Source of the DNA: Letharia columbiana
Taxonomy: Eukaryota; Ascomycota; Lecanoromycetes; Lecanorales; Parmeliaceae
Length of the DNA: 64,000 bases
Reading direction: 5' to 3'
Assembly (NCBI RefSeq): GCF_014066305.1
Contig: NW_023501047.1
Location: 1,054,001 to 1,118,000 of the forward strand
In this document: positions 20,740-56,359 of the stretch, one piece after another
Numbering within the stretch: position 1 is the first letter of the stretch
Layout of the letters: each line of letters begins with the position of its first letter
Notes under the pieces: generated by a model
Told to the model about the DNA's origin: nothing
Database searches by the model: none
Seen by the model: only the letters and a program-made list of their open reading frames with translations
Program-made: the position numbers and the translations under genes

Positions 20740-21300
20740 TCATGCCACGCTAGGAAGTTCTTGCATCAGAATCTGCAACTCAATCTCCTAGGACCAGCTC
20801 GATTCATAACATACGATGTATTGCGCCTTCCACGGGTGGGGCTCATCCAGCGCTACACTCTCATTTTCTTCGTTTTTCTCGTCTCCGGGTACGTACATTT
20901 CGGAGCCGATACTTCTTGAAGCTGAGTCGCAAGACATGTTTCGAAGCAAGCGGACCTTTTTACTCCCGAGACCTGTCTCGCAACTTCATTACCTACCTCG
21001 TATAAGCAATGCTGACTCCGAAATCCGCGCAGCTTCTTCTATATAGTATCGGACCTCGGTGCCAATATCCCCCCAAGTCAGTCAGATGCACTACGGTTTT
21101 TCATCACGCAAGCTCTCGGTATCGTGCTTGAGGACGGAGTACAGGAGACCTATCGGCACATCCGTGGAGGTGAAAGAGCTGCTTTATGGTCCAGAGTCGT
21201 GGGCTATGTTTGGGTTTTGGCGTTCTTGTCCTAGTCTACAGGCGTCTGGCAGTATCCGGCGGTGTTAATTGCAAAAAAAGGGATGCCGGTGTCAAATTGA
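20740..21300 (+). pseudogene. Truncated wax-synthase-like (MBOAT) acyltransferase pseudogene
   Basis: Frame 20740-20888 plus 21033-21300, joined over an intron at 20889-21032 (phase 2), reads HARKFLHQNL, LGPARFITYDVLRLPR, RYTLIFFVFLVSGFFYIVSD, QALGIVLEDGVQETYRHI and VWQYPAVL. This is the C-terminal half of fungal wax-synthase-domain membrane acyltransferases: the H-containing catalytic helix region, the V-SG-F-Y helix and the ED motif. The gene is broken: upstream sequence is the AT-rich island, and TAG at 21232-21234 sits where family members have Trp (the frame continues STGVWQYPAVL). A TGG-to-TAG change is a C-to-T change in a CpA context on the other strand, the RIP preference. The intron is an introner-like element. 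Confidence 0.7.
20889..21032 (+). repeat. Introner-like element, family 1 (intron of the wax-synthase-like pseudogene)
   Basis: A 144-nt intron. Its first 18 bases, gtacgtacatttcggagc, are identical to the start of the carrier-gene intron 55411-55257. Its branch region gctgactccgaaat (21011-21024) is identical over 14 bases to the 3' part of intron 34509-34668. It also shares a GAGTC-x(3-5)-GA-x-ATG block in the middle. Removal restores the acyltransferase frame exactly. Confidence 0.85.
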
Positions 21301-32591: not shown

Positions 32592-34753
32592 ATGTCCTGG
32601 CCACCTCATAGCTTGAGTCGAGAGTCTGAGCTTCCTGAAGAAAAAGCTGAGCTGCTAATTTCTAGAGGCGCCGCCTTCTTCGGAGGTCTCTTCTTACAAG
32701 CTAATCATACCCTCATTCGCCAACCTCGCTTTTACGCGACTGTGAGCTTTGCAGCTGCTGGAAAGCATTTGGAAGCTTCTCCTCAGCCTAGCGCCACTCT
32801 TGCAGATGCGTCGCTTGTGTTGAGTGGCCAGCCGCTCGAAAAGCCCAGCATGGAGCAATGTTTTGGCGCGCTACCAGGAACAGTCACACTCAATCGCTAC
32901 GTAAACGCGATCAGCTGTCCTCGGCATCCGGACCGCTTGCCCAAGTATGAAATTCAGCCTCGCGCCACGGACAACTTGCTCGTGCTACAGCGCCTGCACT
33001 ACTTGATGAGGAATGGCTGGGACAAGGACGTAAGCTAGAGGGAACCCCTCACTGATTCGAGAGACACTGATAGGTACCGGGGTCTAGATCGAGATTGCAG
33101 AGGAATTCCTGTGCACACAACTTGTCTATGACCCTCTCTGGCAGAAAGGAGCACCTCCGCAGCTGGCGAGGCAGATTATGGTTCTCATCGCTGCATTGAG
33201 CAACCCTAGTTGGATCGATTTTCGCGAGCCCACATCTCAGGTACTAGCAAATTATTACGACACAGAGGACGTCGACGTGGAAAAGCACTTCTGGCAACAG
33301 TTGCTTCTGAGTGTTGAACTCGACCTTCGTTTGCGGGCAGCAGGAGACCAGGAACATTCCATGATTTCTCACGTCCCTGACAAAGTCGCTTGGGACCTCG
33401 CATTGAGTAAAGTCTGGCTGTCGAAGATGGCTCTGGTGCCGATTGATGAAGGTTTTTTGCGACCTGCTACCCATTTCCATGTCACAGCTCTCACCAAAGA
33501 TGCTCAAAGGGAGAGGCTCCTAAACTTCGCACGCAGCATGAAGTGGGTGGGCATGCACGATGTTGAATCCATGCTCGAAGAGGACGGCGATGGTGGCATC
33601 CCTCTCGAATTCCAAAACGCACATACATCTTCCTGGATCACCGGCACAATCTTACCGGGCCCATCCGTATGTTGGCTAGCGATGAGATGCCTGATCGACT
33701 GCGATCCTACCATAATCAACCCGCCCCATGGCTTCGACAAGATGGAGTCCAGTTTCGGCTTTCAGTACGGCGGCTGCACCTACTGGTACTTCCAGAACAT
33801 TGTCGGAAAAGTCTTGGGGGCTTCGCGAGGCGTCAACCAGGACCACGGCTGGGTTGGTCCCTGCATCCCCAGCGATGATCTCTTCAAACTTCAGACAGTG
33901 CTCACACACACGGAAGACGTCCCCGTCAAACCGAGCAAGAGTCGTGTGCAAAAAATGGCAGCACGCAGCGCGCCCCTCGGTCCACCAGCTCACCGCTACC
34001 CTGTCCGCGACTACGTGCTGCCACGACCAGACTCCACCAACATCGTCGACTGCGTCAGAGTCCAAAAACTAGCCTTCAACATGCACTCCCTTCCAATCTC
34101 AGCCGATGACCCGACCACCTACGACGCAGCCATCGTTTTCGCCATCGCAAACGAGATCGTCCCCATCCGCCTCCGCTACAACGTCTCCTTCATCTACGCC
34201 CCTCCCTGCCGCGGTCAGCATCCTCTGTTCTGGGACTACGCATACCGAACCATCAAAGCGGATGAGCTCCTTCTGGATCTCCGATGCTGGAACGGCGTCT
34301 TCGTCGATGCGAAGACACCCAGCGAGAACAGCAGCTGTGCCTCTAGCTCTACGGGCTCGAGCGGTGCGGACGCCAAGGGCAAGAAGATGCCGGGACCCGA
34401 GTCCATCCTTGTGGTGGAGGCGTACGGGGTGGAGGATAATGAGGTCTTGGCCAGAGCGTGGGCTTCGCATATTGGGTTTTCGGCCGTCGTGGCGACTGGC
34501 GGGGAGACGTAAGTGCACTTTTTGGAGCGTTTTCCCCTCCCCACCGGTCTATATCATGGTTGAGTCCCAGGACATGGCTTGGGGGAAAAGTTACTCATAA
34601 TGTTTCCCAACCTTGCTCGACTTGAGTTTTCTGCTTCGACGAAGTCTTGCTGACTCCGAAATGGGCAGGTGTGTGGCATGTGCGGTTCGGATGGCTTATG
34701 CGGCTTCGGTACATATGGTTATTTTGGGGGAAGGATGTAGGGAGGGCGATTGA
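32592..34753 (+). CDS. Conserved-looking fungal protein of unknown function (647 aa)
   Basis: Exons 32592-33029, 33088-34508 and 34669-34753. It is not a family I can name. The sequence is that of a globular, mostly helical cytosolic protein without signal peptide or membrane segments: LQRLHYLMRNGWDKD, EHFxxQLLLSVELDLRLRA, WLAMRCLIDCDPTI, FGFQYGGCTYWYFQNIVGKVLGA, VFAIANEIVPIRLRYNVSFI. A Ser-rich linker (NSSCASSSTGSSG) precedes a C-terminal block, ESILVVEAYGVEDNEVLARAW, ending ETCVACAVRMAYAAS across the last intron. That last intron (34509-34668, 160 nt) is an introner-like element copy. The ATG at 32592 is preferred over an upstream GTG because it is the first ATG in frame. Confidence 0.7.
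34509..34668 (+). repeat. Introner-like element, family 1 (last intron of the unknown-function gene)
   Basis: A 160-nt intron, phase 2, gtaagt donor. It shares with the copy at 20889-21032 an identical 14-mer gctgactccgaaat (34649-34662) just before the acceptor, a central GAGTCCCAGGACATG block matching GAGTCGCAAGACATG, and a TTTTGGAGC block near the start matching TTTCGGAGC. It is more diverged than the other copies. Confidence 0.7.
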
Positions 34754-54388: not shown

Positions 54389-56359
54389 TCACGTTAAAAG
54401 GATATCATAACCGTGCTTCTTGATCTTTACAGTTTCCGCTTCATTACCATACCGTCTCCTAACGAGCTCAAAGATCACAAGGCCGGCACTAGTACTTGGG
54501 ACTTGCTTGATAGTGTTCACGAGAAACCCCTTGTAAAGCCACCCTAGCCAACCGCCAGAACGGCGGGCGTACACCAGACATTGGTCATAAGTCTTCTTGT
54601 AAGCCCCGTAATAGCTCCGCAACATCGCGGCCTTGGGTTGATCAATCTTGGCCTGTGAGTCTAAGAACGCGAGCGACTTGTAGTGGACGTTCTGGATTAG
54701 ATTGAGTGGATGCTGGACGATCTGTTGACTGATTGAGGCTGCGATTCCGGCAAGCATCAAAAAGGTCGGCTCGATGGCGTAGTGCGGTTTGATGACATCG
54801 ATGGGCCCAGTCCCATCCAATTTGGGACTCAGAATTGGGGAAAGTAGGTTGCTCTGTAAGTCGCCGTAGTATTTGGCCACGAAGCCGTAGTAAGCCTGGG
54901 CTTTGACATACTCGAAGGTTGCGAAAAAGGCCGCATAGCCGAGTGAATCTTTGACAAGAGGCAGGCCCCAACCCGCGAATACACCACGAGGACCGATCTC
55001 GCGGAGCTTGCTGCGGCCGTATTGCCACATCGTGTTATATTTGCCGCTCAAGACCTCGCTGGTACGGAAGCGAACGGACAGAGCGTCAAGAGGAGCCGCT
55101 ATCACTGATCTGCATCCAGATTGCGGGTCAGTATCTGCCTTTTCAGGGGGAATACCGAGCCTTGGAAAATCTTTAAGGTGCAAACACTCCCAAGACGGGT
55201 TTAAGACTCGAATCTCTGTTCACGAAGAAAGGACATGTGAACCGAGGATACGTACTCTACGCAGATCTCGGAGTCAGCATTATTTATTCGGGGTAGGAAA
55301 TGGAGTTGCAAAACAGGTCTGAGGAGAAGAAAGATCTTCTGGCTCTCGAAACATATCTTTCGACTCAACTTCATTACGAAATAGGAAGGATCAGCTCCGA
55401 AATGTACGTACGGATTACGCCGGCAGAAAATCCGGCTACGGCTGTGCAGTAGACTGGTGGAGGTGGATAGATTCTCTTCAGCGATTGCGAAGAGGGGTGG
55501 TGCAGAGTACCTAAGATCTGGAGATAAGACGTGTACAGAACTGCTCCAACTCTACCACTTGTCAGGCATTCAAGGCTAATAGCGTGGAGAGAAGAGGAGG
55601 CATTACCCAACATTTGCAAGCATGGGCGGGAGCACATGGTTGGGAATGAAGGTCCATCCGTACTATCCAATACGTCAGAGTCAGAATGTTGTCTTTCTTC
55701 GAGGCTAAGGACTGTTCTTATAACGACTGCGGCAGTAAGAAGGAGCTCTCGCCCCCCAAACAGGCCTTGCACTCATACAATGGTCTCTGATATGAAAATA
55801 TTGCTGAAATGTACATACAGTTCGAACGGCATGAGTACTGGATTATGAATTCAGGGTCAGTCTTGCTTGTTTGAGGGGGCATGGCGAGCCTTGGAACACG
55901 TCTAGAGAGTGAACACTCCCAAGACATCTCTCAAGCCTCAAAATTTAGTTCAGAAGAACAAATATGGACTCCGAAAATACGTACAGAAGCCCAGGCGTAC
56001 TCATTCGGAGAGACCAACTTTCCTGAGCCTGAACTCGAGGATTGATAGCCCTTGCAAAGGCCTGACACTGGCTTCAGCAGCTCCTCAAAAACATCAAGAA
56101 TGCATCGTACTAGGTAGCTACACAGAGATAAGCATGGCCATCTCTTCTACACGTAACACTGAACTCACTCAACACGAGTACGAAAGAAGGCCTTCGCTGG
56201 AGCCCTGAAATAGAAGGCTACCGTCTGAGAGGCAACAGCTCGCACTCCTGATGCGGATGCTCCGGTGGCGGCATTGCTTTTTTTGTCTCTTCGAGGACTG
56301 TTTGGTATATCCGAAGCCGAATCTGTGTTTGATAATCCTTTGGTCGACGTCCCAAACAT
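54389..56359 (-). CDS. Mitochondrial carrier-like protein with four introner-like introns and a putative 1-nt exon
   Basis: Exons 56359-56169, 56071-55985, 55837-55819, 55662-55607, 55551-55412, 55256 (one base) and 55109-54389 give 404 residues. The frame builds family strings across every junction: ASQTVAFYFRAPAKAFFRTRV, FARAINPRVQAQESWSL, MSTPGLLTHAVRTYGWTFIP, LPPMLANVGVGAVLYTSYLQ, SLKRIYPPPP, AGVIQSVIAAPLDALSVRF, GPRGVFAGWGLPLVKDSLGYAAFFATFEYVKAQ and GWLGWLYKGFLVNTIKQVPSTSAGL. The PLDAL and P-x-D/E-type turns and the G-FAGW signature are those of mitochondrial carriers; the substrate is unknown. Introns 2, 3, 5 and 6 (147, 156, 155 and 146 nt) are repeat copies of two families. Introns 5 and 6 are separated only by A at 55256, giving the codon C-A-A from three exons. 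The first intron's acceptor is the weakest choice. Confidence 0.82.
55110..55255 (-). repeat. Introner-like element, family 2 (carrier gene intron 6)
   Basis: A 146-nt intron, gtacgtat start, gatgcag end, with ACTGACCC before the acceptor. It shares with intron 55984-55838 the identical 14-mer gtcttgggagtgtt (plus-strand 55184-55197) and CCAAGGCTCG (plus-strand 55157-55166), in the same order and spacing. Confidence 0.8.
55256..55256 (-). other. Putative one-nucleotide exon (A, middle base of a Gln codon)
   Basis: Lies between the tag acceptor of intron 55411-55257 and the gtacgt donor of intron 55255-55110. Exon 5 ends in phase 1 (C) and exon 7 begins with the last base of a codon (A), so this base is needed to give CAA and keep the frame. 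Sequential removal of the two introns would work without exon definition. The alternative is a single 298-nt intron from 55407, giving Arg-Thr in place of Gln. Confidence 0.55.
55257..55411 (-). repeat. Introner-like element, family 1 (carrier gene intron 5)
   Basis: A 155-nt intron. It begins with the same 18 bases as the intron at 20889 (gtacgtacatttcggagc) and ends with GCTGACTCCGAGAT (plus-strand 55265-55278) and gcgtag. The middle has GAGTCGAAAGATATG, matching GAGTCGCAAGACATG in the copy at 20.9 kb. Similarity is seen along the whole length. Confidence 0.85.
55663..55818 (-). repeat. Introner-like element, family 1 (carrier gene intron 3)
   Basis: A 156-nt intron. It starts gtatgtacatttcagc (compare gtacgtacatttcggagc), has GAGTGCAAGGC and TGTTT in the middle, and ends with TCTGACTCTGAC (plus-strand 55674-55685) before ggatag. 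It is open in one frame by chance, which can mislead gene finders into reading through it. Confidence 0.75.
55838..55984 (-). repeat. Introner-like element, family 2 (carrier gene intron 2)
   Basis: A 147-nt intron, gtacgtat start, aatccag end. It shares gtcttgggagtgtt (plus-strand 55912-55925), CCAAGGCTCG (plus-strand 55885-55894) and ACTGACCC with intron 55255-55110. A 19-nt exon (55837-55819, T-HAVRT) separates it from intron 3. Confidence 0.8.

Follow-up and report, generated by a model that had tools for sequence, protein, structure and literature searches.

Background

Can a single nucleotide be an exon of a fungal gene and, if so, how could such an exon arise? The question is raised by a gene for a mitochondrial carrier in the lichen fungus Letharia columbiana. 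It lies in a stretch of 64,000 nucleotides (positions 1,054,001 to 1,118,000 of contig NW_023501047.1, assembly GCF_014066305.1), here called the window, and positions below are those of the window unless a locus is named. On the minus strand of this gene a lone A at position 55256 stands between two introns, both with the appearance of mobile elements. Comparisons of the gene, its homologues and the genome indicate that two introner-like elements of different families very probably entered a conserved glutamine codon with one nucleotide between their insertion points, and that the leftover base is spliced as a one-nucleotide exon.

The carrier gene

The gene occupies positions 54389-56359 on the minus strand. 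Eight exons, at 56359-56169, 56117-56111, 56061-55985, 55837-55819, 55662-55607, 55551-55412, 55256 and 55109-54389, were assembled by script, and their lengths from 5' to 3' are 191, 7, 77, 19, 56, 140, 1 and 721 nt. The assembly gives an open reading frame of 403 residues without an inner stop, and the product matches Pfam Mito_carr (2.3e-18). It has full-length homologues with identities of up to 70%, and lichen fungi are found among the best full-length relatives, for example Pseudocyphellaria aurata with 69% (both among the best 120 of 1136 proteins). The closest named fragment, from Alectoria fallacina, is 88% identical over 86% of a 276-residue query (best 120 of 1124). The gene contains a second tiny exon, the 7-nt CTACCTA at 56117-56111 with flanking introns of 51 and 49 nt, which is matched by the string RVDYLA in homologue P0003.

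Exon 6 (55412-55551, minus strand) ends with ATC C in phase 1, and homologues match it up to its last full codon, while exon 8 (54389-55109) starts with A TCA GTG. In this model the A between them is exon 7 (55256) and supplies the middle base of a Gln codon, CAA. Both by direct reading and after assembly, the junction on the minus strand is GGC GTA ATC C, the intron 55411-55257, the A at 55256, the intron 55255-55110, and A TCA GTG. At TAG/A/GTACGT one base is flanked by two complete introns. Intron 6 (55257-55411) is 155 nt long with the donor GTACGT and the acceptor TAG, and intron 7 (55110-55255) is 146 nt long, running from GTACGT to CAG. Both have the branch motif CTGAC, its A lying 17 nt before the end of intron 6 and 18 nt before the end of intron 7. 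A further AG, a possible decoy acceptor, follows the branch A of intron 6 at 7 nt. The two introns, the lone A and the flanking phases 1 and 2 had all been proposed in an earlier note on this DNA, and the assembly reproduces them; the exon numbers of that note were one lower than ours, and its boundaries are the same.

The lone A in a conserved glutamine codon

The lone A is needed at the Gln codon because any contiguous excision that keeps the length of the protein leaves AGA, CGA, CGA or CGT between ATC and TCA, which always encodes Arg. The homologues were counted at this site: 217 proteins were fetched and 215 aligned, with P0121 and P0122 left out as reading into an intron, and 178 of the aligned proteins cover the site. 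These have Gln in 173 cases and Ser in five, with no Arg and no change of length. The upstream side is not covered in the other 37 of the 215, which include P0115 and P0124; in these two the residue before the Ser is an Arg that comes from read-through of the intron end.

Enumeration of splicing around the site gave 890 combinations of donor and acceptor, 264 of which stay in frame to the natural stop. Their products were scored with a profile built from those of the best 120 of 1136 homologues that are 370 aa or longer, 109 in all. The product containing the one-nucleotide exon ranks first of the 264 with 670.7 bits; the next, at 666.4 bits and 4.3 bits behind, uses a 6-nt mini-exon inside intron 7. 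The residue count and the top score both bear out the earlier proposal that keeping the A yields a glutamine suited to the carrier family, and skipping it, with the donor of intron 6 joined to the last acceptor, does shift the frame as had been stated. On these sequence comparisons the reading of position 55256 as a one-nucleotide exon appears well supported.

Intron 6 and its family

Intron 6 is one copy of an introner family, here called family 1. A search of the genome (52.2 Mb in 161 contigs) returned 39 other matches with 75-88% identity (40 scored of 76 candidates), and the first 17 bases of the intron have 35 exact occurrences in the genome, compared with 0 for the control. The many copies lie at unrelated positions, and four unrelated host genes could be named. 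Thirty of the 40 scored matches were taken as loci, 24 of them with a CGYAG end; L023, L024, L025, L027, L033 and L034, having no CGYAG acceptor, were excluded from the analyses of 24 copies. The acceptor was thus a condition of selection for the 24, which start with GTACGT in 22 cases and all have CTRAY with the A 17-18 nt before the end.

The family behaves as spliceosomal introns that are removed without loss of the frame, both in a comparison of frames and in spliced copies. A donor 4 nt further in would shift the frame in single copies, and the two donors were compared by the length of the open frame. Among the 23 other copies, 15 have a longer open frame with GTACGT, three are tied, and in five GTACGT is the shorter by 1-4 codons. 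When the intron 6 locus is treated as a lone intron the frame of the inner donor is the longer one (27 vs 17 codons), because intron 7 follows. Seven copies of the family were spliced and four of these scanned, and in all four the junction residue falls within a Pfam match. The FMO-like, Peptidase_S10 and PMI_typeI_cat matches extend well past the junction, residue 121. For the ABC transporter copy, ABC_tran stops before the junction and ABC2_membrane_7 starts at residue 119.

Intron 6 is both longer than introns 1, 2 and 5 of the same gene (155 nt vs 49-55 nt) and strongly folded, its predicted structure being a full-length hairpin that pairs the ends of the intron (z -4.5; -3.6 and -4.8 in two other copies). 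The consensus fold of the 24 copies has an energy of -65.1 kcal/mol, and the ends are paired with each other in 23 of the 24 predicted folds. No covariation was found in the consensus hairpin of the 24 copies: the score is 0.102, compared with 0.104 in shuffles, and 88.0% of the cells are paired, compared with 88.1%. Slid versions of the hairpin have only 28-47% paired cells. RNAalifold on the same copies gave 10 pairs at -2.7 kcal/mol, none of them compensated. Because covariation is absent, the hairpin seems to belong to the element as it multiplies rather than to reflect later selection.

Family 1 is an imperfect palindrome along its whole length, and some copies can be aligned with their own reverse strand. 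Fungal introners are described as symmetrical (PMC8469720), and a passage in PMC9860276 has ascomycete introners without terminal inverted repeats. Of the 24 copies, 14 have a C and 10 a G before the insertion, and 19 have an A after it; all 14 sites preceded by C are C^A, like that of intron 6. Inspection by eye of the flanks of 30 copies revealed no target site duplication. The window has further introner copies on the plus strand at 20889-21032 and, weakly, at 34519-34662.

Intron 7 as a probable second introner

By sequence likeness, intron 7 appears to be a different and more diverged introner than intron 6. Its best likeness is to intron 3 of this gene (55838-55984, minus strand), with 70% identity over 138 nt (E 7e-15), and we place intron 3 in the same second family; the locus L003 is weakly like intron 7. 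The profile of family 1 does not reach it. A search of the genome with intron 7 returned only itself; since intron 3, which is 70% alike, was missed as well, copies may have been overlooked. The fold of intron 7 (z -1.7) does not stand out. The nearest copy of intron 6 differs from it by 11.6%, and intron 7 is probably the older of the two introns.

Relatives with one intron or none

Protein records of related fungi that read into an intron give some information on the state of the site elsewhere. The query was the open frame that starts before exon 6 and extends into intron 6, and two proteins, P0121 and P0122, were found among five candidates. After the exon both read Gln-Tyr-Val, as CA/GTAYGT would, and neither continues like intron 6. 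They fit an intron at CA/A, the position of intron 7, in a gene lacking intron 6. Only these two bear on the absence of intron 6, and both show the 5' side only. P0115 (60 members) and P0124 instead show only the 3' side, where an intron end at the acceptor of intron 7 leads into the exon, and as fragments they do not show the state of intron 6.

The tails of these fragments were matched to intron DNA by back-translation and compared with the maximum from shuffles. The tail of P0115 fits best with intron 7 (38.3; maximum 18.0 in 60 shuffles), and that of P0122 fits intron 7 and a family 1 copy equally (24.5 each; shuffled maximum 18.3). The match of P0124 to intron 7 is weak (22.1; shuffled maximum 19.3), and that of P0121 is within chance (13.9; maximum 14.2), intron 3 being a better match at 16.3.

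The opposite state is suggested by P0123 from Alectoria fallacina, which starts Met-Cys-Val-Glu-Ser as if an intron end TGYGTAG stood directly before AR TCN. This fits an intron at C/AR, the position of intron 6, without intron 7. The Alectoria intron was called family 1 from about 10 bases, and intron 1 of the carrier gene itself also ends in tgtgtag.

A tree was constructed with 31 rows, namely the L. columbiana gene and 30 of the 217 proteins, P0121 and P0122 not among them. The L. columbiana gene, P0115, P0124 and P0123 are found in one clade of 15 (95/98), which contains a weakly supported inner clade of ten (88/67). The clade next to it has five members: P0026, P0114, P0131 and P0117 are uninterrupted at the site, and P0136 does not extend over it. 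Alectoria, whose fragment fits a gene lacking intron 7, lies in the same clade as the L. columbiana gene, so that the introns may have been gained in either order. Judging by these fragments, each of the two introns seems to occur by itself in relatives.

Alternative readings of the site

The earlier note had itself named a competing reading, a single intron of 298 nt (55407-55110) that replaces Gln by Arg-Thr. The stretch 55407-55410 on the minus strand leads from the family donor, GTACGT at 55411, to the donor of this intron, GTACAT at 55407, 4 nt further in. The intron exists as described and would probably be the choice of a gene predictor; its product is in frame to the natural stop and, with 662.3 bits, is the best of the single-intron products and sixth overall. 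That score is nevertheless 8.4 bits under the product with the one-nucleotide exon, and neither Arg nor an extra residue occurs in any of the 178 covering homologues, so that orthologues with Arg-Thr, which were to have decided against the lone A, are absent from this set. The frame comparison in the other family copies favours the donor 4 nt upstream (15 of 23, with three ties and five against), and P0121 and P0122 read into what looks like an intron with its donor at CA/GTAYGT. The single intron was rejected on the product score and the homologue residues, and we regard it as improbable. The lone A could also be used poorly: in a recent pseudogene or partly unproductive locus it would often be skipped, with 55411 joined to 55109, and the resulting frameshift would lead to degradation of the message and dampen expression. 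Very small exons are described as prone to skipping (PMC4674806), but the protein is uninterrupted and can be aligned with homologues over nearly its full length, as under selection, which makes this reading highly improbable.

A Gln codon assembled from three exons had been called exceptional in the earlier note and likened to stwintrons, in which a splice signal of one intron is split by the other and the block is removed as a nested unit. The exceptional codon stands in the form of a one-nucleotide exon, a kind of exon that has precedents; the likeness to stwintrons does not hold at the level of the splice signals. Two adjacent introns that are removed in sequence would suit a stwintron, and fungal introners and stwintrons share a symmetrical structure (PMC8469720). 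Against this, donor, branch motif and acceptor are complete in both introns, neither interrupting the other, and removal of a nested unit would amount to one contiguous gap, which leaves Arg at this codon if the length is kept. With intact signals in introns 6 and 7 and a retained A that is needed for Gln, a true stwintron was rejected and has hardly any probability.

Adjacent introners elsewhere in the genome

How often introners meet was assessed in 39 loci, excluding the site in the window; these had been collected by likeness or by the pattern of the 3' end rather than by looking for pairs. They consist of 29 likeness matches and 10 of 15 later ones, the other five being repeats of earlier loci. 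Introners were found next to each other in two of the 39, L025 and L063. A random model, which is crude and applied to a small sample, predicts 0.012 pairs (P 7e-5, or 0.007 at tenfold density).

At L025 (1278-1649) the introners abut with zero bases between them (TACGTAG/GTACGT), giving a site like those of recursive splicing. At L063 (1338-1711, minus strand) one G separates GCGTAG from GTAAGG when the letters are read, and the gap is 8 nt by the profile; this pair sits past the stop codon of another carrier-like gene, the host being judged by eye. A third abutting pair, also with 0 nt between (GCGCAG/GTACGT), was found with a pair-seeking pattern at L058 (1343-1641), where the downstream exon resembles what we take to be a DNA polymerase X. 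A search for more one-nucleotide exons with GCGTAG N0-12 GTACGT, a pattern that covers one exact family end only, gave 20 matches and no enrichment (87 in the backward control). Introners on both sides were present only at the site in the window among these 20; at L049 a single introner lies on the 3' side.

It is conceivable, and we put it forward tentatively with rather less than even confidence, that the introners of this fungus preferentially enter existing intron ends or sites one base away, as they might exon-exon junctions of spliced RNA, and so repeatedly make exons of zero and one base. The Gln codon would then have received two or more insertions within a single fungal family, both precursors surviving in relatives, and this would be a birth route for one-nucleotide exons and recursive-splicing sites.

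Proposed origin and splicing

Two separate insertions one base apart, in either order, are the likeliest origin of the arrangement and the simplest account of the sequences. In the lineage of L. columbiana the older introner, intron 7, might have been present at CA/A before a family 1 introner was inserted into C/A just upstream; C^A sites account for 14 of the 24 sampled copies. By intron definition, introns 6 and 7 would each be recognised as a unit. Because the acceptor and the donor are one base apart, simultaneous binding of both introns should be impossible and they would be removed one after the other. Intron 6 would most likely be removed first because its hairpin brings its own ends together, although a helping role of the hairpin in splicing is a guess. 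Its removal would produce CCA/GTACGT, an intact donor for intron 7, and the reverse order would also be workable. A skipped A would shift the frame.

Comparison with known systems

Exons of one nucleotide have been described in plants, in Arabidopsis APC11 and in plant VPS55 (PMC4674806, PMC8831610), and in Fusarium CYP621A, the first fungal case according to its authors (PMC12940212). The plant exons share with the present one that a coding exon of 1 nt lies between two spliceosomal introns. They differ in their wide conservation among plants and in the RT-PCR and RNA-seq evidence for them, and the accounts of them in these reports do not trace them to mobile introns (PMC4674806, PMC8831610).

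The Fusarium exon is closer: it also lies in a fungal nuclear gene, between phases 1 and 2, where 1 nt keeps a conserved codon, and it was likewise found by comparison with an intron-free homologue (PMC12940212). It is a G, is common to the orthologues of many Fusarium species and is supported by 18 RNA reads, and its authors suggest that a cryptic AGGGT was adopted after the loss of a base (PMC12940212). In the carrier gene, by contrast, the flanks appear to be introners, relatives with one intron are indicated, the base is A and the support is sequence-based (cf. PMC12940212).

Intron 6 resembles described fungal introner-like elements in that similar introns occur at unrelated positions, are longer than ordinary introns and fold through inverted repeats (PMC4457414, PMC8469720). 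Introners have been reported to lie 1, 8 and 3 nt away from where other species have ordinary introns (PMC4457414). Those near-coincident introns belong to different species, whereas here two stand in one gene one base apart; by analogy, the reported case resembles the present situation before both introns meet in one gene (PMC4457414). The [D1,2] stwintrons of Xylariales are similar in their sequential removal and in near-terminal inverted repeats that join the intron ends, and dissimilar in that the splice signals here are uninterrupted and one exon base is kept (PMC12403724).

No one-nucleotide exon made by introners was found among the listed papers of the open-licence PubMed Central literature on one-nucleotide exons, introners (in fungi, in lichens and next to other introns), stwintrons, and intron gain with microexons. 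The introner route to such an exon and its visible precursors look new, while one-nucleotide exons as such were already known from plants and Fusarium.

Conclusions

The birth of a one-nucleotide exon may be traceable at this locus, as the introns appear to be mobile elements with known family boundaries and relatives are apparently in one-intron states. The route differs from that of the published fungal one-nucleotide exon, which is explained by base loss and cryptic rescue. The site also takes the spliceosome to its limit, with an acceptor and a donor one base apart and an order of removal that can be measured. For the annotation of fungi, the arrangement suggests that introner-rich genomes may contain mis-annotated genes of this sort.
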